A DNA stretch of 14,173 nucleotides from Candidatus Desantisiibacteriota bacterium (lineage in GTDB: Bacteria; JACRDZ01). The position numbers and the translations under genes are program-made. Each line of letters begins with the position of its first letter. Position 1 is the stretch's first letter. The DNA lies in contig JACQWU010000199.1 of NCBI GenBank assembly GCA_016209155.1, forward strand, positions 1 through 14,173, in the 5' to 3' direction. This document shows positions 2,071 to 13,853 of the stretch, piece by piece. The notes under the pieces were generated by a model that was given only the letters and a program-made list of their open reading frames with translations, was not told the origin of the DNA and searched no databases.

Positions 2071-2412
2071 ATGTTTACAAAAACAATTTATGCTATGGGA
2101 CAGACACAATCAGCTCAGTCACCTGCTACTCCGGCTTCAATATTTATACAAATGGCACCGCTTGTACTTATATTCGGCGTGTTTTATTTTTTAATAATAA
2201 GACCTCAGCAGCAGAAACATAAAAAACATCAGGAAATTTTGAATAATCTTAAAAAAGGTGATAAGGTAGTTACTATTGGAGGCCTTACAGGCGTGGTAAA
2301 TGCTATAAAAGATGATAATTTAATAAGCATAGAAATAAGCTCCGGTGTTAAGGTTGACATATTAAAAAGTGCAGTATCATCTTTGTTGGGCAGTAATACT
2401 GAAGAAAAATAA
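2071..2412 (+). CDS. yajC: Preprotein translocase accessory subunit YajC
   Basis: YajC is a small inner-membrane protein that associates with SecDF and the SecYEG translocon. The 113-residue product has the family plan: a short periplasmic N-terminus, one hydrophobic helix at about 28-44 (APLVLIFGVFYFLIIRP), the signature RPQQQKHKKHQEILNNL, and a cytoplasmic beta-rich part with KGDKVVTIGGLTGVV (62-76). A strong ribosome site (GGGAGGTG, 2058-2065, 5 bases before the ATG) fixes the start. The usual partners secD and secF do not follow; an intrinsic terminator comes immediately after the stop instead. Confidence 0.95.
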   Translation: MFTKTIYAMGQTQSAQSPATPASIFIQMAPLVLIFGVFYFLIIRPQQQKHKKHQEILNNLKKGDKVVTIGGLTGVVNAIKDDNLISIEISSGVKVDILKSAVSSLLGSNTEEK

Positions 2413-2439
2413 CCACAGTATACAGCTGTGGTTTTTTTT
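2411..2439 (+). terminator. Intrinsic terminator after yajC
   Basis: A perfect 8-bp stem, AACCACAG / CTGTGGTT (2411-2418 and 2426-2433), with a 7-base loop, leads into an unbroken run of T to 2439. It begins inside the yajC stop codon and closes the larE-tgt-yajC unit. Confidence 0.88.
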
Positions 2440-2457: not shown

Positions 2458-2486
2458 TTGACAGATAATACTTTAAAATTTAAAAT
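2458..2486 (+). promoter_or_regulatory. Sigma70-type promoter for the cytochrome cluster
   Basis: A perfect -35 box TTGACA (2458-2463) is separated by exactly 17 bases from TAAAAT (2481-2486), one mismatch from the -10 consensus. It lies just downstream of the yajC terminator and 30 bases before the first gene of the following same-strand cluster, giving a short 5' leader of about 20-25 bases. Confidence 0.8.
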
Positions 2487-2515
2487 CTAATAAATATATA
2501 CATATAGGATTAATT

Positions 2516-3391
2516 ATGAAATTTATTAGTATATCAATAATTATTTTTCTATTGATAATTTTTATTCTTTTCGGTTGTCAGGATAAAAATGTTATTGAAA
2601 TGACAATTGAAGAACAAAATAAATTAGCCGCATTGCATTATAAGAACGCTTTTGACACATTTTTTGTAAGCAAGCATATTCTTGAAAAAGTTGACCCCAA
2701 AGACCGCACACGAAAAGTAAAAGAACAACGCATTAAAGCATATAAGGATTTCAAAGTAATTACAGAACGTTATTATAAAAGCATATATATGGATAAAGCT
2801 TTAGTCAGTATTGCCAGAATAGAAGAAGAATATTTATCTGACTATGGAGCAGTCAAATATTATAAAAAATTAAGGGATGATTTCCCTGATAGTAAATATA
2901 ATTTTGAAGCAGCGCAGAAAGTTTCTGAGATTAAAAACAAATTTATATGGAAAATAGAAGAATCCATTCATCAGAAAGAATACGATAATGCTATTTTAAT
3001 CATAGAAAGATTAAAAAATATTTTACCTGAATTTGAAGAGCTATATTTTTATCTTGGACTTATTTATGAAAAAAAAGGATTTTATGAACAGGCGATGAGA
3101 GAATGGGGAAAATTAAAAGATAATCCAAAAGCGCATTTTTTATTGTCCATTTCATACTACGATCGAAAACTCTACAAAAAAGCCATAAAAGAATTATTTG
3201 AAGCAATTGATTTAGATAAGAAGAATCCTGTTTATTATTATAATTTAAGCATAATTTATGAAAAAGATGGTAATAAAGAAAAAGCAAAACAGTTGAAGGA
3301 TGCCTACTTAAAAATAGCAAAAAACAATGAAGATGAAAAAAAATGGACAAATGCAATAATGGAAGAAAGCGCAGGTAATAAAGAGAAATAA
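2516..3391 (+). CDS. TPR-containing envelope lipoprotein
   Basis: The 291-residue product begins with a lipoprotein signal: a hydrophobic stretch at 5-18 and lipobox LFGC with acylated Cys21. Residue +2 is Gln, so by the E. coli rule it would not be held in the inner membrane. The rest is helical repeat. The 70-145 part (with DDFPDSKY) recalls the TPR arrays of BamD-like lipoproteins, and clear TPR units lie at about 163-275, including YFYLGLIYEKKGFYEQAMREW and YYYNLSIIYEKDGNKEKAKQ. No enzymatic motif is visible, so a scaffold role is inferred. AGGA (2506-2509) sits 6 bases before the ATG. It is first in a cluster leading to a multihaem cytochrome, suggesting a part in assembling or anchoring that system. 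Confidence 0.8.
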   Translation: MKFISISIIIFLLIIFILFGCQDKNVIEMTIEEQNKLAALHYKNAFDTFFVSKHILEKVDPKDRTRKVKEQRIKAYKDFKVITERYYKSIYMDKALVSIARIEEEYLSDYGAVKYYKKLRDDFPDSKYNFEAAQKVSEIKNKFIWKIEESIHQKEYDNAILIIERLKNILPEFEELYFYLGLIYEKKGFYEQAMREWGKLKDNPKAHFLLSISYYDRKLYKKAIKELFEAIDLDKKNPVYYYNLSIIYEKDGNKEKAKQLKDAYLKIAKNNEDEKKWTNAIMEESAGNKEK

Positions 3392-3436
3392 GTGATTAAT
3401 TTTTATATTACCTATGCCGATATGGAGGAAATAGGT

Positions 3437-4627
3437 ATGGAGGTAAAGGTGAAAGATTATTTTTCTAAATGTATATGCATAATAATTATTTTATTCACGG
3501 TTACAGCTATAAAAACTCATGCTCAGGCTTTTAAACGTTTTAAGGAAGGGGATAAAGCTTTAACCATTGTATCAAAAACATTAGACGGGAAACAAATTAA
3601 TACAGATGAATTTAAGCAGAAAAACACCCTGGGGGTGATTTTCTGGAAACTTGGAAGCGTTCGGAGTATATCAGCATTAAAATATTTACAGAAAACAAAG
3701 GAAACATATAAAGATATAGGATTTACAGTCATTTCCGTATATTGTCCCAAAGAATCAACAGGAATATCAAGCAGTGAAATAGAAGAAGTGGAAAAAATTT
3801 TGCAGGAAAATAATATTAGCATACCTGTGCTTTTGGATGAAGGATTAAAAGTATTTAATAATTATGGCGTAATTAGTCTGCCGAGTATAATGATACTGGA
3901 TGTGGAAGGAACGGCAAAATATATTTTAGGAGGTTTTCCTAAATTCGGAGCTGAAAGCGATATCAGTAAAAATGTTAAAAAGATTCTTGGTATTCCTGAG
4001 GAGGCTGTCGCAAAAAAGAAATACGAACCTAAATTGCCCGCGAGCAGAAATTACAAACTTGCAAACGCTGTTTTGGAGAGAGGAAATACAGATAAAGCGA
4101 TTGAATATTTAAAAAATGCAATATCAATGGATCCGGATTATGCGGATCCATATGCTTTAATAGGGAAATTGTATCTTCAGAACCAGAATAAAGAACTTGC
4201 ACTGGAGAATTATAGAAAAGCTCTGGAATTGGATCCGGACAATAATGAAAATATGATAAAATATGGTTTCTTGTGTCTTGAAGCCGGAATGAATGACGAT
4301 TCACTTCTGGTTTTCAAAACAATACTTGAAAAGTCACCTGATTTTACACCGTCAGCCCATTATGGGATAGGCAGTGTTTATATGCAAAATCAGGTATATG
4401 ATTCAGCCCGGTCTGAATCAGAAAAAGCCGAAATACTTTATTCTCAGGCTAACAACTTAAGTCCGCACGAAAATCTTTATTACGCTCAGACTATAAGTAA
4501 CCTGGCGGAAATATATTCAGCTCTTCAGGAAAAATCTAAAGCCATTGAAGCATATAAAAAAGCCGGTAAGAAATACGAAGAAATTTTAGGAGAATTGGTT
4601 AATGAAACCTCTACTCGGGAAAGATAA
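3437..4627 (+). CDS. Secreted thioredoxin-fold (TlpA/AhpC-TSA-like) protein with C-terminal TPRs and SXXS in place of CXXC
   Basis: From the ATG at 3437 (GGAGG at 3424-3428, 8 bases away) the product has 396 residues. A GTG at 3449 with its own GGAGG (3439-3443) is an equally reasonable start; a frame extension back to a GTG at 3392 has no ribosome site and adds a tail before the signal peptide. The signal peptide ends near THAQA (residues 27-31). Residues 38-185 form a redoxin-like domain: GDKALTIVSKTLDGK, GVIFWK, and the cis-Pro region YGVISLPSIMILD. Where TlpA/ResA proteins have WCxxC after FW, this one has GSVRS, so both redox cysteines are serine (Ser74, Ser77). Residues about 210-390 hold four or more TPRs (EYLKNAISMDPDYADPY, NYRKALELDPDNNENM). 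A binding or chaperone role is more likely than disulfide exchange. It is 45 bases after the lipoprotein gene and overlaps the cytochrome gene. Confidence 0.8.
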   Translation: MEVKVKDYFSKCICIIIILFTVTAIKTHAQAFKRFKEGDKALTIVSKTLDGKQINTDEFKQKNTLGVIFWKLGSVRSISALKYLQKTKETYKDIGFTVISVYCPKESTGISSSEIEEVEKILQENNISIPVLLDEGLKVFNNYGVISLPSIMILDVEGTAKYILGGFPKFGAESDISKNVKKILGIPEEAVAKKKYEPKLPASRNYKLANAVLERGNTDKAIEYLKNAISMDPDYADPYALIGKLYLQNQNKELALENYRKALELDPDNNENMIKYGFLCLEAGMNDDSLLVFKTILEKSPDFTPSAHYGIGSVYMQNQVYDSARSESEKAEILYSQANNLSPHENLYYAQTISNLAEIYSALQEKSKAIEAYKKAGKKYEEILGELVNETSTRER

Positions 4628-6812
4628 AATGATGAAAAAAATATTCTACGCTTCCATGCTGATTATATTTATGTTGACCGCAAATATTATTTTTGGAAAT
4701 GCTAATGACAATTCTGCCGGTGATGAATTTACTAAAATAATAACCGGTGTTGAATTTGAAAAAAAACTTCATTATCCCACCGGAGTTGCAGTTAATTCTC
4801 ATGGCGAAATTTATATAAATAATATTAAATCTGAAAGTAAGTTTTTTTTGAATAATATTATAGTAGTAAAAATTCAAAAATATAACAAAGAGGGAAAGCT
4901 TATTCTGGAGTTTGGTGAAAAAGGTCAGGGAGACGGAAAGTTTAATTTACCTACTGATATTGCTGTTGATAAAGATGATAATATTTATATCACGGATATC
5001 GGACTGCACCGTGTACAAATTTTTTCTTCAAAAGGGAAATTTATTAGAAAATTTGGAGTACAGGGTAAAGGAGACGGTGAGTTAAATATGCCGTTTGCTA
5101 TAGCTGTTGATGATCACAAGGGAAATATTTATATTGCAGACACGGGGAATAATCGCATATCGGTGTTTAATAATAACGGAGCTTTTGTTTTTTCATTTGG
5201 AAGAGAGGGCAGTAAAGAGGGGGAATTCAGCAAACCAATGGATTTGGAAGTCATAGACAAAGAGATTTATGTTGTTGATACAGGTAATTCGCGCATACAG
5301 GTATTTAATTTTGATGGAAAATTTTTATGGAAATTTGGACAACCCGGTTCCGAATTGGAAGATTTTTCTAATCCGAAAGGAATATCTGTTGATAAGAAAA
5401 ACGGGATCGTTTATATAAGTGATACAGATAATAATACGATAAAAGCTTTCAGTAAAAAATCGCAATTAATACTTTTTTCTTTTGGGACCAGAGGAGCGAT
5501 AGAAGGTACATTTAACAGCCCGCAGAGGTCTTTTATTGATAAAAACGGAAAATTATACATAACCGATTCCAACAATGACAGACTGCATATTTTTAAACCA
5601 AAATTTCATGTTAATGATGAAGCAAGCAAGAAATGCGCTGATTGCCATAATGAAGAGGTTGTTGAAGTAGATAATAAAAAAACACATCCGGGTTTTGGCA
5701 AAGAATGTTCTCCCTGCCATAAATTGGAAGAAATAATTAAGATAAGAGGAGTCAGAAAGTATGAGAAACAGATATGTTTAAGATGTCATGAAAAAGATTT
5801 TCGCTACCGCTATTTACATGGTCCTATAGGAATGGGAGAGTGCGGAATATGCCATAATCCTCATGGGTCGGAAAAATATGATCAGCTTCTTGAACGAAAA
5901 GACGCTAATCTCTGTATAATGTGTCATGATGTAAAATCAACCAATAATTTTGTGCATTCTCCTATTGAAAAAGGTTTGTGCCTAATATGTCATAACCCTC
6001 ACGGGGGCAATAATCCAAATTATACATCACGTACTGAAATGAAATTATGCAATTCATGTCATGGGGCAAGATTTCAAAAGAAATATCTTCATGGTCCTAT
6101 TGGAAGCGGGGAATGTATTGTATGTCATGACCCGCACAGTTCAAAAGAAAAATTTTATCTGAAATTACCGGAAAGCGTGTTATGCAGAACATGTCATAAA
6201 GATATTAAATTGAATAAATTTACCCATAAACCTGTTTCTGAAGGTAAATGTCTGGCATGTCATACTCATCATGAATCAGATTTTCAGACTCAATTGCAGA
6301 ATATAGAAGTTGATTTATGCTACTCATGCCATAAGGAAGAAAAAGAGAAATTTAATAAAAAGTTTGTTCATGCTCCGCTTAAACAGGGTAAAGGTGAATG
6401 TATCATATGCCATACTCCTCATAGCTCACAAAATCCTTTTATGCTGAAATATTATTTCAATCCGGCTTTTTATATTAATTATAATTTGAAAAATTTTGAT
6501 TTGTGTAATCGATGCCATAATAAAAATATTGCGGAAGACGAAATATTATCTAATGATAGAAGTATTATGATTACAAATTTCAGGAATGGAGATGTGAATT
6601 TACATTACAAACATGTAAATCAAACCAAAGGCCGTAATTGCATAACATGCCATAATATACATGCGTCCGATTCAGATTTCTTGATCCAGACCGAAACTTA
6701 CCTTGGGGGAATGATGCAGGGAAAAATAACTTTTACACGCACAGCAAGCGGAGGGAAATGTGAAGTCGGATGTCATAAGCCGAGAGAGTATTCACGCAGT
6801 AAAGGGCAATAA
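4602..6812 (+). CDS. NHL beta-propeller fused to a 15-haem c-type cytochrome
   Basis: A 736-residue secreted fusion. The signal peptide is at about 11-34. The ATG at 4602 has AGGAGA (4588-4593) 8 bases upstream and overlaps the previous gene by 26 bases; ATGs at 4629 and 4632 would give a more compact signal peptide but have only a weak ribosome site. Residues about 50-333 contain six NHL units (for example AIAVDDHKGNIYIADTGNNR), enough for a six-bladed propeller. Residues 345-725 contain 14 CXXCH haem sites (Cys345, 369, 392, 414, 438, 460, 483, 505, 528, 550, 573, 600, 635, 680) and one CX3CH (CEVGCH, 720-725). Most fall in the doubled-CXXCH pattern HxPxxxGxCxxCHxPH...LCxxCH, repeated six times. 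It should carry electrons in the periplasm or outside the cell; the propeller probably docks a partner. Cytochrome c maturation genes are not in the window. Confidence 0.92.
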   Translation: MKPLLGKDKMMKKIFYASMLIIFMLTANIIFGNANDNSAGDEFTKIITGVEFEKKLHYPTGVAVNSHGEIYINNIKSESKFFLNNIIVVKIQKYNKEGKLILEFGEKGQGDGKFNLPTDIAVDKDDNIYITDIGLHRVQIFSSKGKFIRKFGVQGKGDGELNMPFAIAVDDHKGNIYIADTGNNRISVFNNNGAFVFSFGREGSKEGEFSKPMDLEVIDKEIYVVDTGNSRIQVFNFDGKFLWKFGQPGSELEDFSNPKGISVDKKNGIVYISDTDNNTIKAFSKKSQLILFSFGTRGAIEGTFNSPQRSFIDKNGKLYITDSNNDRLHIFKPKFHVNDEASKKCADCHNEEVVEVDNKKTHPGFGKECSPCHKLEEIIKIRGVRKYEKQICLRCHEKDFRYRYLHGPIGMGECGICHNPHGSEKYDQLLERKDANLCIMCHDVKSTNNFVHSPIEKGLCLICHNPHGGNNPNYTSRTEMKLCNSCHGARFQKKYLHGPIGSGECIVCHDPHSSKEKFYLKLPESVLCRTCHKDIKLNKFTHKPVSEGKCLACHTHHESDFQTQLQNIEVDLCYSCHKEEKEKFNKKFVHAPLKQGKGECIICHTPHSSQNPFMLKYYFNPAFYINYNLKNFDLCNRCHNKNIAEDEILSNDRSIMITNFRNGDVNLHYKHVNQTKGRNCITCHNIHASDSDFLIQTETYLGGMMQGKITFTRTASGGKCEVGCHKPREYSRSKGQ

Positions 6813-6831
6813 AATTGTTTAAAGGATAATA

Positions 6832-6972
6832 ATGAGAAAAAGACATAAAAGATTACGAATACATCTGGCGGATAAAATAAAAAATGAACAGGAATTATTA
6901 ATAGATAGTTTTATGCTGGTTATTAAAGTTGTTATAGTACTTTTTATTTTTTATTGGTTATTCAGGCCTTAA
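6832..6972 (+). CDS. Small single-TM basic protein (46 residues)
   Basis: A short gene in the gap between the cytochrome and U32 genes. ATG at 6832 is preceded by AAAGGA (6821-6826), 5 bases away, and the frame ends at TAA 6970-6972. The protein starts with a very basic segment (MRKRHKRLRIH), has an amphipathic middle and ends in one strongly hydrophobic helix at about 28-44 (MLVIKVVIVLFIFYWLF) followed by Arg-Pro. By the positive-inside rule the N-terminus is cytoplasmic. Tight spacing (19 bases after the cytochrome stop, 9 before the U32 start) and a proper ribosome site support a real gene. No family is recognised; a membrane anchor or partner for the cytochrome module is a guess. Confidence 0.6.
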   Translation: MRKRHKRLRIHLADKIKNEQELLIDSFMLVIKVVIVLFIFYWLFRP

Positions 6973-6981
6973 AGGAAGATT

Positions 6982-8202
6982 ATGTATAAACCGGAGCTGG
7001 TATCACCTGCCGGGAATTATGAGAAATTAAAAATAGCTATACAATACGGCGCAAATGCAGTTTATCTTGGGGATACAAGATTCAGTTTAAGATCATATGC
7101 TGATAATTTTAGCCCGCAGCAAATAAAAAAAGCAGTTCTATATGCGCATGAAAGAGGAGTGAAAGTATATCTAACTATTAATATTTTTGCACATAACAAT
7201 AATCTTGCGGATATTAAGGAATATATTTTATTTTTAAAAGATTCCGGAATAGATGGAGTTATAGTTTCTGATCCCGGTGTTTTTACAATTGTTAAGGATT
7301 TAGCGCCAGTTTTACCGCTTCATATAAGTACACAGGCAAATGTAACAAATTTGCAGTCTGTTAAATTTTGGGAAAAACTTGGTGCATCACGTATAATTCT
7401 TGCCCGTGAGCTGGGATATGATGAAGTGAAGGAAATAAGAGAATCCGCGGCTATTGAACTGGAAGTATTTATTCACGGAGCCATGTGCATGGCTTATTCC
7501 GGAAGATGCATGTTAAGCAGTTATATGGTTGGGAGAGATGCTAATCTCGGAAGCTGTGCTCATCCCTGCCGTTATAAATATAATTTGCTTGAAGAAGAAA
7601 GACCCGGGCAGTATTTCCCTATAGAAGAGGATGAAAAAGGAACATATATTTTAAGCGCAAGAGATTTATGTACTATTGAACATATTCATTATTTTTTAAA
7701 TATTGGAATTAATAGTTTTAAAATTGAAGGCAGAATGAAAGGAATTTATTATCTGGCAGTTGTAACCCGGGCATATAGACAGGCAATTGATTCTTATTTG
7801 AAGGATTCTAAAAATTATATTGTTAACCCGGAATGGAAAGAGGAACTCGAAAGCATAAGTCACCGTGAATATACTTCCGGTTTTTACTTTGAAAAGGATA
7901 GATATAATCTGCAAACAAAAGCAGAATCTTCTTATATTCAAAAATATGATATTGTAGGAATAGTTAAGGGAAAAATAAAAGACAATACAGAGAGAAAATT
8001 TATTATAGAAATAAGGAATAAATTATCCAGGGGCGACGAGATAGAGATTTTAGCGCCTTCAGGTAATTTATCATATAAAATAGAAAAAATTTGTGATATA
8101 AACGGAGCTGATCTCGAATTTGCACACCCTAATCAGCAGGTACTAATTGAATTTAAAGGTTCTATCGAAGAAGGAAATCTTTTAAGAATCAGGAAAAAAT
8201 AA
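6982..8202 (+). CDS. Peptidase U32 family protein (probable RNA hydroxylation/prephenate-dependent type)
   Basis: The 406-residue product is a full-length U32 protein: N-terminal ELVSPAGNYEKLKIAIQYGA, YLTINIFAHN (63-72), the U32 signature EVFIHGAMCMAYSGRCMLSS (161-180), then SCAHPCRY (191-198) and SARDLC (225-230). Cys169, Cys176, Cys192 and Cys196 are the conserved set thought to hold an iron-sulfur cluster in relatives. A C-terminal beta domain spans about 325-405. Despite the family name, characterised members such as TrhP/YegQ and RlhA hydroxylate tRNA or rRNA using prephenate; which subgroup this belongs to cannot be read off. AAGGAAG lies at 6972-6978, 3 bases before the ATG. The stop overlaps the next start by one base. 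Confidence 0.92.
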   Translation: MYKPELVSPAGNYEKLKIAIQYGANAVYLGDTRFSLRSYADNFSPQQIKKAVLYAHERGVKVYLTINIFAHNNNLADIKEYILFLKDSGIDGVIVSDPGVFTIVKDLAPVLPLHISTQANVTNLQSVKFWEKLGASRIILARELGYDEVKEIRESAAIELEVFIHGAMCMAYSGRCMLSSYMVGRDANLGSCAHPCRYKYNLLEEERPGQYFPIEEDEKGTYILSARDLCTIEHIHYFLNIGINSFKIEGRMKGIYYLAVVTRAYRQAIDSYLKDSKNYIVNPEWKEELESISHREYTSGFYFEKDRYNLQTKAESSYIQKYDIVGIVKGKIKDNTERKFIIEIRNKLSRGDEIEILAPSGNLSYKIEKICDINGADLEFAHPNQQVLIEFKGSIEEGNLLRIRKK

Positions 8203-8426
8203 TGCAAGTAGAGACATTAAACACTATCAGTAAATGCTATAAAGTTCCTTCTGAAAAAATAGGATTTATCAACATGATTATTGATTCTTACGAAGGAATG
8301 GCTTGTCTTCGTACGCTGGATGAAAAGCTTGGGTATGTTGAGCTGTGGATTTCTCCGTTTTTTGAAAAAGAAGTCGAAAAAATAATAGAAGATCTAAAAA
8401 AAGATATTCTTATAGAAAGGATATAA
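8202..8426 (+). CDS. DUF4911 domain-containing protein
   Basis: A 74-residue protein starting in the TAATG overlap with the U32 gene, so almost certainly translationally coupled to it. It matches the DUF4911 pattern: a KCYKVPSEKIGFINMIIDSYEGMA core, then LRTLDEKLGYVELWISPFFEKEVEKII. The family has no known function; pairing with a U32-family gene recurs in anaerobic bacteria as I recall, suggesting a shared job. No signal or TM segment is visible, so it should be cytoplasmic. It is the last gene before a new promoter. Confidence 0.8.
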   Translation: MQVETLNTISKCYKVPSEKIGFINMIIDSYEGMACLRTLDEKLGYVELWISPFFEKEVEKIIEDLKKDILIERI

Positions 8427-9233: not shown

Positions 9234-9702
9234 ATGCAAAAAAAATTGCAAATTTTTTTTTTATTTAATAAATTTTAGTATATTGTGGTTATTTTTTTCA
9301 AGTACAATATTTGCTTCACAAAAATCCTATCATATTGTTCGCCGTGGTGACACACTAATGGGCATTTCCAGGATTTATCAAATTCCTGTTAATGAGCTAT
9401 TGCGATTAAATAAGCTTAAAATAAGAAGTAATATACATGCCGGACAAAAAATAATTATAACTGCCAAAACAGAATCTCCTGCTCAAAAAATCACGGTACA
9501 TATCGTGAAAAAAAATGATACTTTATCAAGTATCAGCAGATATTACAAAATTTCGATGCAAAATATTAAATCCAATAATAAAATATATAATGATAAATTA
9601 TTTATTGGACAGCGTCTTTTCATTCCTGTTAAAGATGACAAAGTGCATTTGACTGAATATAATTTTTCATGGCCTGTTTCCGGCAGGGTAGTGGATAGTT
9701 AA
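9234..9702 (+). pseudogene. Broken NlpD-like gene, N-terminal part (frameshifted signal peptide, two LysM domains)
   Basis: The frame open from TTG 9283 to TAA 9700-9702 starts in the middle of a signal peptide (LWLFFSSTIFAS), then has LysM modules at about 9325-9460 (YHIVRRGDTLMGISRIY) and 9500-9630 (VHIVKKNDTLSSISRYY), a linker and the beginning of a LytM domain (FSWPVSGRVVDS). The natural start appears to be ATG 9234 (MQKKLQIFF), which is one base out of phase with the rest. Removing one base from the A8 run (9238-9245) or the T10 run (9253-9262) yields a complete signal peptide joined to the LysM part. The stop at 9700 falls where the LytM domain should continue. Either a pseudogene or, less likely, a slippage-controlled gene; a sequencing error in the T run is also possible. 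Confidence 0.7.
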
Positions 9703-9898
9703 ACACGACAGTGATATCACTACTGTATATGGTAATTTAGGAGAAACATTAGTAAATATCGATCAAAAAGTTGAAGAAGGAGAAGTTATCGGGAAAATTA
9801 CTACCGAAGAAAATTCCTCAATATCCTTTTTGCATTTTGAAATAAGGATTAATGCCTCTCCACGTGATCCTTTGTCTTATTTGACGAAAAAATATTAG
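9692..9898 (+). pseudogene. C-terminal LytM/M23 remnant of the NlpD-like gene
   Basis: In the next frame, from about 9692 to TAG 9896-9898, the translation VKHDSDITTVYGNLGETL, then KVEEGEVIGKI and LHFEIRINASPRDPLSYL is an unmistakable M23/LytM C-terminus. It joins directly to the WPVSGRVVDS start of the same domain, so roughly 40-50 residues between them, including the HxxxD zinc-ligand region, are missing and the frame is shifted. Remaining catalytic positions are also substituted: Gly-Asn for Gly-His in VYGNL and Phe-Leu-His for His-Leu-His. This is as in catalytically inactive LytM regulators such as NlpD and EnvC, so the ancestor was probably an amidase activator rather than an endopeptidase. 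Confidence 0.75.
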
Positions 9899-9926
9899 CT
9901 TCAGGTGAATAGACTGAAGGTGGAAG
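9899..9926 (+). repeat. Degenerate CTGAAGG heptamer repeat, copy 1, with short hairpin
   Basis: CTTCAG (9899-9904) and CTGAAG (9914-9919) form a 6-bp stem with a 9-base loop. The stretch 9900-9926 matches 11714-11740 at 22 of 27 positions, both reading TTCAGGTGnnTAG followed by two degenerate (R)CTGAAG heptamers. It lies just after the LytM remnant stop. Confidence 0.45.
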
Positions 9927-9943
9927 GTTTTTAGGTGCAAATT

Positions 9944-12137: not shown

Positions 12138-13304
12138 ATGAAGGAAAAATTGTTGAAATTTGGAATGGCAGCAGCTTTACTTTTAAGTTTTACGGCGGTT
12201 TCTTTTGCCGCCTCTTCTTACGAGATTATTGACCTGGGCTTGGATTATGCCATGGACGTAAACAATAGCGGCCAGATTGCCGGTGGTTTAGGGGGACATG
12301 CTGTAATATACACCAACGGTATAATCACTGATATAGGAACTCTGGGCGGATATTCGAGCCAGGTCAACGGTCTCAATGAAAGCGGACAAGTTGTAGGAAG
12401 TTCTACAACTGCAGGGGGAGAAAACCATGCTTATATATATTCCGGAGGTGTGATGACTGACCTGGGTACTCTGGGTGGGGACCAGAGTCAAGCTTATGGC
12501 ATTAACGACAACGGTATAGTAACTGGAGTTTCTATGACCGCTGATGGATTCTATCATGCTTTTATGTGGGATGGTACCATGCATGATATGGGTACACTGG
12601 GTGGTGTTATGAGCTTAACCTTGGGCAGTTGGGCTGTCAACAACAGCGGACAGATAGTTGGAGTTTCTGACGGCTATGCTTTCTTGTATGATGGAGTAAT
12701 GCACAACCTGGGGACTTTACCCGGCGGCATTGGAAGTAACGCTATGGCTATTAATGAAGGCGGACAGGTTGTCGGGGAATCCGGCACTGCCGGCGGAGAA
12801 ACCCATGCTTTTTCTTATGTTGGCGGAGTGATGAGTGATTTAGGCACCCTGGGAGGCAATACAAGCAGCGCATGGGGTGTCACCAGCAGCGGACTGATTG
12901 AAGGATATTCGGTGACATCAAGTGGAGAAGAGCATGCTTTCTTTTATAATGGCATAATGCACGATGTTGGTACTTTAGGCGGCAATTACAGCAGGTCTTA
13001 CCCAATGAACGAAATCGGCCAATTAGCCGGTAATTCTAACACTGCCACTGGAGAATATCATGCATTTGTATACAGTCTTAGTGATGGGATTATTGATCTG
13101 GGGATGCTGGATGGCGGCAACTACAGCTCTGCGTATGGTATTAACGATAACGGCTGGATAGTGGGAGTTTCCAATGACGGGATAAGTCCGCCGCATGGCG
13201 TTCTCTGGAAACCGCAGGATAGCGTTGTTCCTGAACCAGGTACTATGTTTCTTTTTGGCAGCGGTTTAGCCGGTTTGCTGGTTTTTCGCCATAAAAAAAA
13301 CTAA
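12138..13304 (+). CDS. Extracellular HAF-repeat protein with PEP-CTERM sorting signal
   Basis: 388 residues. Signal peptide 1-24 (KEKLLKFGMAAALLLSFTAVSFA). About eight HAF units of 40-50 residues follow, each reading roughly DLGTLGG..S.A.GIN..GQVVG.S...G..HAF.Y.GG, as in the HAF family of exported proteins. The C-terminus has VPEP (364-367), a hydrophobic helix (TMFLFGSGLAGLLVF) and basic RHKKN, the full PEP-CTERM signal recognised and cut by an exosortase, which is not in this window. The product is therefore surface- or matrix-directed; its function is unknown. AGGAG (12128-12132) lies 5 bases before the ATG. Its codons (GGC, GGA, ACC, CTG) are clearly more G/C-rich than those of neighbours, and it stands alone between a MITE and a truncated toxin gene, both signs of acquired DNA. 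Confidence 0.9.
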   Translation: MKEKLLKFGMAAALLLSFTAVSFAASSYEIIDLGLDYAMDVNNSGQIAGGLGGHAVIYTNGIITDIGTLGGYSSQVNGLNESGQVVGSSTTAGGENHAYIYSGGVMTDLGTLGGDQSQAYGINDNGIVTGVSMTADGFYHAFMWDGTMHDMGTLGGVMSLTLGSWAVNNSGQIVGVSDGYAFLYDGVMHNLGTLPGGIGSNAMAINEGGQVVGESGTAGGETHAFSYVGGVMSDLGTLGGNTSSAWGVTSSGLIEGYSVTSSGEEHAFFYNGIMHDVGTLGGNYSRSYPMNEIGQLAGNSNTATGEYHAFVYSLSDGIIDLGMLDGGNYSSAYGINDNGWIVGVSNDGISPPHGVLWKPQDSVVPEPGTMFLFGSGLAGLLVFRHKKN

Positions 13305-13330: not shown

Positions 13331-13365
13331 AAATATCCGTGGCTTTTGCCATGGATATTTTTTTT
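13331..13365. terminator. Bidirectional intrinsic terminator
   Basis: AATATCCGTGGC / GCCATGGATATT form a 12-bp stem with one G-T wobble around loop TTTT, followed by eight T on the plus strand and five T on the minus strand. It serves the PEP-CTERM gene and, from the other side, the convergent toxin gene whose stop codon overlaps the T-run. Confidence 0.85.
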
Positions 13366-13636
13366 ATCCTGTATTCAAGTTAACGATTTCCTTGGTTCTA
13401 CTATTATTGCTCTTTCGTAAAACAGTTCCTAATTCCTCAATCTCATCAGGTGAAAAATTAAATTTAGATCTGGATAGAACCTCAAACAATTCTTCTAAAG
13501 CTTCATTTGATATTAATAACTCAAATTTGTCATCTAACCATAAATCGAGAATTTTTCTATAATAACCACGTTTTAAAAAAGATATATAAATATTTGTATC
13601 TATAACTATTCTAAGCTTTTCTGTTTTTTTTCCCAT
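13364..13636 (-). CDS. PIN-domain putative toxin, C-terminally truncated
   Basis: 90 residues resembling the first two-thirds of the PIN-family toxin component (COG1569 type, usually about 130-145 residues). LRIVIDTNIYISFLKRGYYRKILDLW carries the first metal ligand Asp13, and ELLISNEALEELFEVLSRSKF carries the second acidic site (Glu48/49). The frame then stops at KEIVNLNTG, before the expected DPDDNKFLELA and TGDKDLL segments holding the remaining two acidic ligands. It therefore probably lacks nuclease activity. The stop falls in the terminator shared with the PEP-CTERM gene, suggesting the 3' part was lost when that DNA arrived. The start overlaps the antitoxin gene by 26 bases. Confidence 0.72.
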   Translation of the reverse strand: MGKKTEKLRIVIDTNIYISFLKRGYYRKILDLWLDDKFELLISNEALEELFEVLSRSKFNFSPDEIEELGTVLRKSNNSRTKEIVNLNTG

Positions 13637-13853
13637 AGTTTGCTCTAACCTCTTGAATCTCTTTTTGTATATCTTCTTCAGTAATGTTATCTAATTTGTT
13701 TTCTACTTTGGAAAGAAAAGCTCGAAATTTTATTTTCCAGTTTTCTTTTCCTTTTAAATATTCAGCATAATTAATAAGTTCTACTACTTTATTTGTTGGC
13801 AAATCCTTTACTGTGGACATTAACCTATCTTCAAACACTCTATGTAATTCCAT
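13611..13853 (-). CDS. Putative antitoxin partner of the PIN toxin
   Basis: 80 residues, mostly helical and highly charged, with an N-terminal segment (VKDLPTNKVVELINYAEYLKG) like those of small antitoxins placed before PIN toxins, and a C-terminal EEDIQKEIQEVRANYG helix likely to wrap the toxin. AGAGG on the minus strand, 8 bases before the ATG, supports the start. The order antitoxin first with overlapping toxin is the usual type II arrangement. Family assignment rests on context and general character, not on a diagnostic motif. Confidence 0.65.
   Translation of the reverse strand: MELHRVFEDRLMSTVKDLPTNKVVELINYAEYLKGKENWKIKFRAFLSKVENKLDNITEEDIQKEIQEVRANYGKKNRKA

Follow-up and report, generated by a model that had tools for sequence, protein, structure and literature searches.

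A cysteine-less ResA-like redoxin-TPR protein as a recurrent genomic neighbour of long multihaem cytochromes in Candidatus Desantisiibacteriota and other phyla

During the maturation of c-type cytochromes, ResA and CcmG reduce the cysteines of the apocytochrome; NrfG, SirG and CcmI are, to our knowledge, not redoxin fusions. It has been reported that the tetratricopeptide repeats (TPRs) of NrfG and CcmI bind the apocytochrome and that dedicated lyases and chaperones serve atypical haem motifs (PMC12285233, PMC6976685). Multihaem cytochromes accompanied by an NHL-propeller protein are described for Desulfovibrio ferrophilus DFE_0448-0451 and DFE_0461-0465 (PMC9769857). The present analysis concerns a stretch of 14,173 nucleotides (hereafter the window), which is the complete contig JACQWU010000199.1 (G000:C131) of a Candidatus Desantisiibacteriota bacterium whose genome assembly (GCA_016209155.1) measures 3.08 Mb and is 79% complete. 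A previous sequence-only reading had proposed that four consecutive genes of the window, here numbered 1 to 4, form a compact envelope electron-transfer cluster. The comparison presented here favours, as the best explanation, a biological unit made of genes 2 and 3, in which a long cytochrome of the paired-CXXCH family is accompanied by a dedicated partner whose serines occupy the positions of both active-site cysteines of ResA. The features concerned are the following:

3437..4627, + strand: gene 2, exported ResA-like redoxin-TPR protein of 396 amino acids, with a GSVRS site (S74/S77) and the LPS proline loop kept
4632..6812, + strand: gene 3, six-bladed NHL propeller plus 15-haem paired-CXXCH cytochrome, 726 amino acids
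5634..6779, + strand: haem-binding region of gene 3, 14 CXXCH motifs from 5634 and a terminal CX3CH

Gene 2 combines a redoxin domain (Pfam Redoxin, 1e-9; AhpC-TSA, 2e-8) with a TPR region that follows it (5e-20). Its AlphaFold2 (AF2) model, with a predicted local distance difference test (pLDDT) value of 90, has the predicted thioredoxin-like fold of the ResA type; Foldseek retrieved 4nmu and ResA chains with E values of about 1e-10, hmmsearch matched 4nmu at 2.6e-28, and the best redoxin matches were ResA chains, followed by DsbE-type proteins. In the active site, FWKLGSVRS, the residues S74-x-x-S77 occupy the positions of C74-x-x-C77 in ResA, and with serine at both of them the protein does not carry the CxxC of ResA/TlpA. 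The proline of the presumed cis-Pro loop beside the active site is kept, as it aligns in every listed member of the family (P149, invariant in A1). By these tests gene 2 is neither a ResA enzyme, as CxxC is absent, nor a TPR protein of the CcmH/CycH type, as the match to PF23914 falls below the cut-off of that family.

In a survey of 62 fused redoxin-TPR open reading frames (ORFs), CxxC was present in only two, one of which was an ordinary TlpA-like protein. Outside the window's phylum the site is mostly WATW-S-x-x-S (SEHS, SKRS, SPRS, SDNS, SQRS), which is the canonical TlpA/ResA signature with both cysteines swapped for serine. A second class found there, redoxinTPR-A, has Q-x-R-S, and position 4 is serine in 43 of the 45 copies outside the window's phylum. 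No cysteine is conserved family-wide, and one G110 copy is entirely cysteine-free. A role of the SXXS redoxin as an electron carrier is unlikely, given that it lacks the redox cysteines. Separately, redoxin and NHL are combined in a gene of the window's genome that an apparent frameshift interrupts (G000:C50, L035:5781-7302); its redoxin part also lacks CxxC (PDST).

Gene 3 begins with a signal-like N terminus followed by the NHL propeller, and it matches the Paired_CXXCH family (PF09699) with 205.9 bits against a curated cut-off of 20.6. It contains 14 CXXCH motifs and one CX3CH motif (CEVGCH, residue 710), mostly spaced 22-24 residues apart, while the shuffled sequence yields a mean of 0.05 CXXCH. 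All 30 cysteines of the protein fall within these 15 motifs, which argues that CEVGCH is a true haem site; the count of 15 haems given in the sequence-only reading therefore holds. The view of gene 3 as an electron-transfer protein is upheld; it is most likely an exported electron carrier. In relatives the number of cysteines is likewise about twice that of the motifs (CXXCH plus CX3-6CH). AF2 was confident for the propeller alone (residues ~50-322), the haem region having a pLDDT below 50. Full-length relatives occur in G003 (44% identity), G001 (44%) and G002 (42%). A single-protein scan of the genome contig collection with gene 3 gave no match, and an alignment scan of the same collection found the full-length fusion of NHL propeller and 15-haem cytochrome in two records alone, evidently G003 and G002, so that within this collection the fusion looks restricted to the window's phylum. 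In three genomes of this phylum, a gene for a 22-23-haem paired-CXXCH cytochrome closes an apparent riboflavin operon running from a ribD-like to a nusB-like gene (G003:C16, L253:4705-6516; G001:C22, L254:6548-8359; G002:C30, L255:3896-5749).

The association of both genes was followed within the window's phylum through four genomes, G000 (that of the window), G001, G002 and G003. A redoxin-TPR gene lies beside a paired-CXXCH cytochrome of about 15 haems in all four, at up to two loci each. In the first locus the redoxin-TPR gene is directly upstream of the NHL cytochrome (the window, G003:C36 and G001:C36); the contig of the G002 counterpart begins at the NHL cytochrome. The second, larger locus, present in 4/4 genomes (G000:C128, G001:C49, G003:C42, G002:C77), has the order cyt15, redoxinTPR, cyt5, cyt8, its first cytochrome being a member of the gene 3 family with 15-16 haems and no NHL domain; NHL proteins and 14-haem cytochromes are encoded beyond cyt8. 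In addition, a tetrahaem gene stands next to the redoxin-TPR in both G003:C1 and G001:C123. Across the survey, 33 of the 62 fused ORFs have a cytochrome neighbour, defined as a same-strand ORF with at least four haems and no more than 1 kb away. This adjacency looks far above chance, because paired-CXXCH matches (73-92 per genome in the window's phylum) are concentrated on few ORFs, a judgement made from the scarcity of the genes rather than from a genome-wide shuffle.

The wider sample was a profile search of 241 genomes across many families, in which the large electroactive phyla are thinly represented and at most seven candidates were scored per genome; full redoxin-TPR matches beyond the window's phylum were found in a few further groups alone. 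The pair itself recurs in four other phylum-level groups, namely the G110 group, G150/G263, G232/G262 and G239, which together with the window's own makes five. In the G110 phylum, 9 of the 12 genomes screened were positive for redoxin-TPR. The gene order in G110 and G241 is ResB, ResC/CcsA, cyt15, redoxinTPR-A, cyt5, redoxinTPR-B (Pfam matches in G110: ResB 2e-103, Cytochrom_C_asm 9e-58), an array in which redoxin-TPR occupies the place expected for ResA in System II. ResB and/or ResC also accompany the module in G247 and G251, and the redoxin-cytochrome part was seen in G242, G243, G245 and G248. A corresponding array that includes ResB/ResC is found in G263:C205, from the phylum of G150. 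In G232 and G262 a cytochrome with 13 CXXCH and two atypical sites is followed by two redoxin-TPRs, and in G239 cyt15 is followed by one. Linkage of redoxin-TPR to the haem lyase is thus present in two groups, those of G110 and G263, and absent in the window's own phylum.

A further set of SxxS redoxin-TPR genes (L209, L221, L222, L224, L226, L227, L233, L239, L244, L252), arranged singly or in tandems of two or three, lies directly 3' of dnaK in seven of the eight genomes examined from the G110 group; in the eighth, G243, the dnaK match is partial. This linkage hints at protein assembly. Other genes were seen near redoxin-TPRs. A 26-haem paired-CXXCH cytochrome of ~760 amino acids stands beside a NapH-like 4Fe-4S membrane protein near the redoxin-TPR module (L248:1965-4250, L249:4986-7277), and an MreB/actin-like gene, MamK-like by eye, is found near a redoxin-TPR tandem of G243 (L243:6434-7486).

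Genes 2 and 3 can be described as a cytochrome assembly or electron-transfer module containing a cysteine-less ResA-TPR. Because the pairing recurs in several unrelated phyla, at times beside haem-attachment genes, the redoxin-TPR is probably an assembly helper of the cytochrome and not part of the wire, and an assembly role is also suggested by its linkage to ResB/ResC in other phyla. More precisely, gene 2 may be a redox-inactive, NrfG/CcmI-like holdase or assembly factor for long apocytochromes, a reading to which a probability of roughly 45% is assigned. We infer that its peptide groove, with the proline loop kept, and its TPRs would keep the long apocytochrome bound and deliver it, without the formation of mixed disulfides, to the haem lyase (CcsBA/ResBC) of System II, whose ResB is present in all four genomes of the window's phylum, and that the NHL propeller of gene 3 would probably dock a partner protein. 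With slightly greater reserve, this can be extended to a tentative redox-independent branch of cytochrome c assembly, in which exported SxxS "pseudo-ResA" redoxin-TPRs would serve as holdases of long and irregular multihaem apocytochromes in haem attachment by System II, the genes being retained as a pair or operon in at least five phyla.

Several observations weigh against this holdase reading. In the window's phylum the active site drifts (GSVRS, PSERC, PGDRC, TTKDS, with one copy CNRC), strict SxxS being a feature of other phyla and not of the window's own. PF23914, the CcmH/CycH TPR family, scores 32.5 bits on gene 2, below its cut-off of 42. In the tree, the redoxin-TPR of the window clusters with paralogues from its own genome (100/99) and not with the copies at the same position in G003 and G001; on this grouping, the pairing has been retained while the redoxin-TPR copy turned over. 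Within the phylum, 8 of the 17 fused copies lack a same-strand cytochrome at a distance of up to 1 kb, and ResB, found in all four genomes, is encoded elsewhere than the redoxin-TPR module. The dnaK linkage is also equivocal, as DnaK is cytosolic whereas the redoxin-TPRs are exported. Finally, the 22-23-haem cytochromes share the terminal CX3CH and stand without a redoxin-TPR beside them in the three genomes concerned; on that account, a dedication of the redoxin-TPR to the CX3CH haem was dropped as a linkage claim.

The main rival to the holdase places the redoxin-TPR in the mature electron-transfer complex as a structural scaffold, which would clamp or space multihaem cytochromes and use the redoxin fold for binding alone. 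That these genes adjoin cytochrome genes or lie between them in several phyla is in keeping with such a subunit, and so are the nature of TPRs and NHL propellers as docking domains, the frameshifted redoxin-NHL gene of the same genome and the NHL proteins encoded in the larger clusters. This role is nevertheless rather unlikely, since the ResB/ResC genes of the same operons and the dnaK-linked copies favour protein assembly, and several redoxin-TPR copies lie away from any cytochrome. Considerably more doubtful is a retained thiol-enzyme activity of the redoxin-TPR in cytochrome maturation, as a monothiol reductase or trap working through one cysteine or through an outside cysteine. The ResA fold would suit it, as would the position-4 cysteine of G003:C36, G001:C36 and G002:C90 and the CNRC of G002:C132, but the family has no conserved cysteine, the cysteine-free G110 copy exists and the copy of the window has serine at both positions. 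It is improbable, too, and by a shade the more so, that gene 3 forms part of a nanowire or trans-outer-membrane conduit like MtrCAB, the porin-cytochrome conduits (PCC) or OmcS, with genes 1, 2 and 4 as accessories. Its 15 haems at a period of 22-24 residues and a domain-level similarity to MtrC/MtrF and decahaem families point in this direction; against it, the listed ORFs of the window, whose main proteins were searched with Pfam, include no porin or beta-barrel gene, the sequence matches in the PDB include no OmcS-type nanowire chain and the haem region of gene 3 has no confident model. Hence the word conduit, in the MtrCAB/PCC sense, is not upheld for this locus.

The surroundings of the pair in the window comprise these further features:

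2411..2433, + strand: terminator-like hairpin after yajC, with a 9-bp stem and a TTTTTT tail
2458..2486, + strand: sigma-70-like promoter TTGACA-17-TAAAAT, 11/12 match
2516..3391, + strand: gene 1, TPR lipoprotein of 291 amino acids, with an N-terminal hydrophobic helix and a lipobox-like LFGC
6832..6972, + strand: gene 4, orphan of 46 amino acids with one C-terminal transmembrane stretch
6982..8202, + strand: U32 family gene, TrhP/RlhA-like, 9 bp after gene 4
8202..8426, + strand: DUF4911 protein, conserved beside U32

All four ORFs named in the sequence-only reading are confirmed on the + strand, at about the places where it had put them. In gene 1, which contains TPRs, the hydrophobic N-terminal helix closes in the lipobox-like motif; gene 4 has no family matches. 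The preferred start of gene 2 is ATG 3437, with GGAGG 8 nt upstream, GTG 3392 being open as an alternative. For gene 3, which stops at 6812, the choices are ATG 4602, with AGGAGA upstream and an overlap of 26 bp with the end of gene 2, and ATG 4632. The hairpin supports the beginning of a new putative transcription unit after yajC, and together with the promoter-like site it would fit a transcription start at gene 1. The same reading had placed the genes behind one strong promoter: the 11/12 match at 2458-2486 stands, but it is weak evidence, because this AT-rich stretch has promoter-like sites at a near-chance frequency (53 observed vs 45.6 +/- 7.7 expected). Its description of a set encoding only envelope proteins applies to the four named genes and not to the probable operon. 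The U32 gene starts at 6982 and no + strand terminator was called between it and the end of gene 4, so the transcription unit need not stop at 6972; the U32 gene is probably co-transcribed with the upstream genes and unrelated to them in function.

As a conserved unit, the four-gene set was ruled out. Homologues of gene 1 (26-29% identity) adjoin unrelated genes in G001, G003 and G002. No homologue of gene 4 was found in any locus examined, and it is missing upstream of both U32 homologues examined; the U32-DUF4911 pair is part of a different conserved context and recurs in G002:C10 without gene 4 and without a cytochrome. The co-occurrence test set in the sequence-only reading itself thus refutes genes 1 and 4 as members of the proposed cluster, gene 1 being a local neighbour outside the conserved module, but it does not refute genes 2 and 3, a pair recurrent across genomes. 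The least likely explanation, a chance local arrangement in which the four genes share transcription alone and genes 2 and 3 have unrelated jobs, describes genes 1 and 4, which like the downstream U32 gene are not conserved with the pair, but it is already unlikely for genes 2 and 3, which pair up in five phylum-level groups and, inside the phylum, at two paralogous loci, despite the scarcity of redoxin-TPR genes (~3-6 for each genome of the window's phylum) and of paired-CXXCH genes.

Other observations concern the remainder of the window. At 9283-9935 a LysM gene ends at 9702 and M23-peptidase-like sequence continues in a different frame, an apparent assembly frameshift or pseudogene. HAF-like repeats occur, together with a PEP-CTERM sorting signal (PEPGTMFLFGSGLAGLLVFRHKKN), in the protein encoded at 12138-13304, and at the contig end, on the - strand (13364-13853), lie a PIN-domain-like toxin gene and a small antitoxin-like gene, both identified by eye.

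In cytochrome biogenesis it is an unsolved question how a single polypeptide can receive 15 or more haems while its many cysteines are kept from scrambling, and, if the holdase reading is true, a serine-swapped thioredoxin-fold partner with a substrate groove would be a dedicated holdase for such cytochromes. In addition, WATWSxxS-TPR beside a paired-CXXCH cytochrome provides a sequence marker for electron-transfer loci, useful in uncultured phyla without recognisable porin-cytochrome genes. No description of SXXS redoxin-TPRs paired with multihaem cytochromes was found in the open-access papers searched. The module resembles System II (ResA with ResB/ResC or CcsBA) in its ResA-like fold and, in two other groups, in its operon-like array with ResB/ResC; it differs in having SxxS for CxxC, an added TPR scaffold and, in the window's genome, no resBC nearby. 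As with NrfEFG, SirEFG and CcmI (PMC12285233, PMC6976685), a TPR protein accompanies a multihaem cytochrome that has atypical haem motifs, and in the groups of G110 and G263 a haem lyase is linked as well, although those systems are parts of System I and gene 2 has no family-level TPR match, PF23914 remaining below its cut-off. Thioredoxin-NHL fusions of the NHLRC2 type unite redoxin and NHL in one protein, as in G000:C50, whereas the window has them in separate adjoining genes, together with TPRs and 15 haems (PMC6107167). Long multihaem c-type cytochromes are common to the window and the MtrCAB or Geobacter porin-cytochrome conduits, but the window has no porin and its cytochrome belongs to a different family (paired CXXCH). 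Like the DFE clusters of D. ferrophilus, compared by description, the locus joins multihaem cytochromes and NHL, and the D. ferrophilus genome likewise shows no apparent porin-cytochrome conduit; in that organism the NHL protein has a gene of its own and a redoxin-TPR partner goes unmentioned in the part of the source at hand, whereas in the window NHL is fused to the cytochrome and the redoxin-TPR partner is present (PMC9769857).

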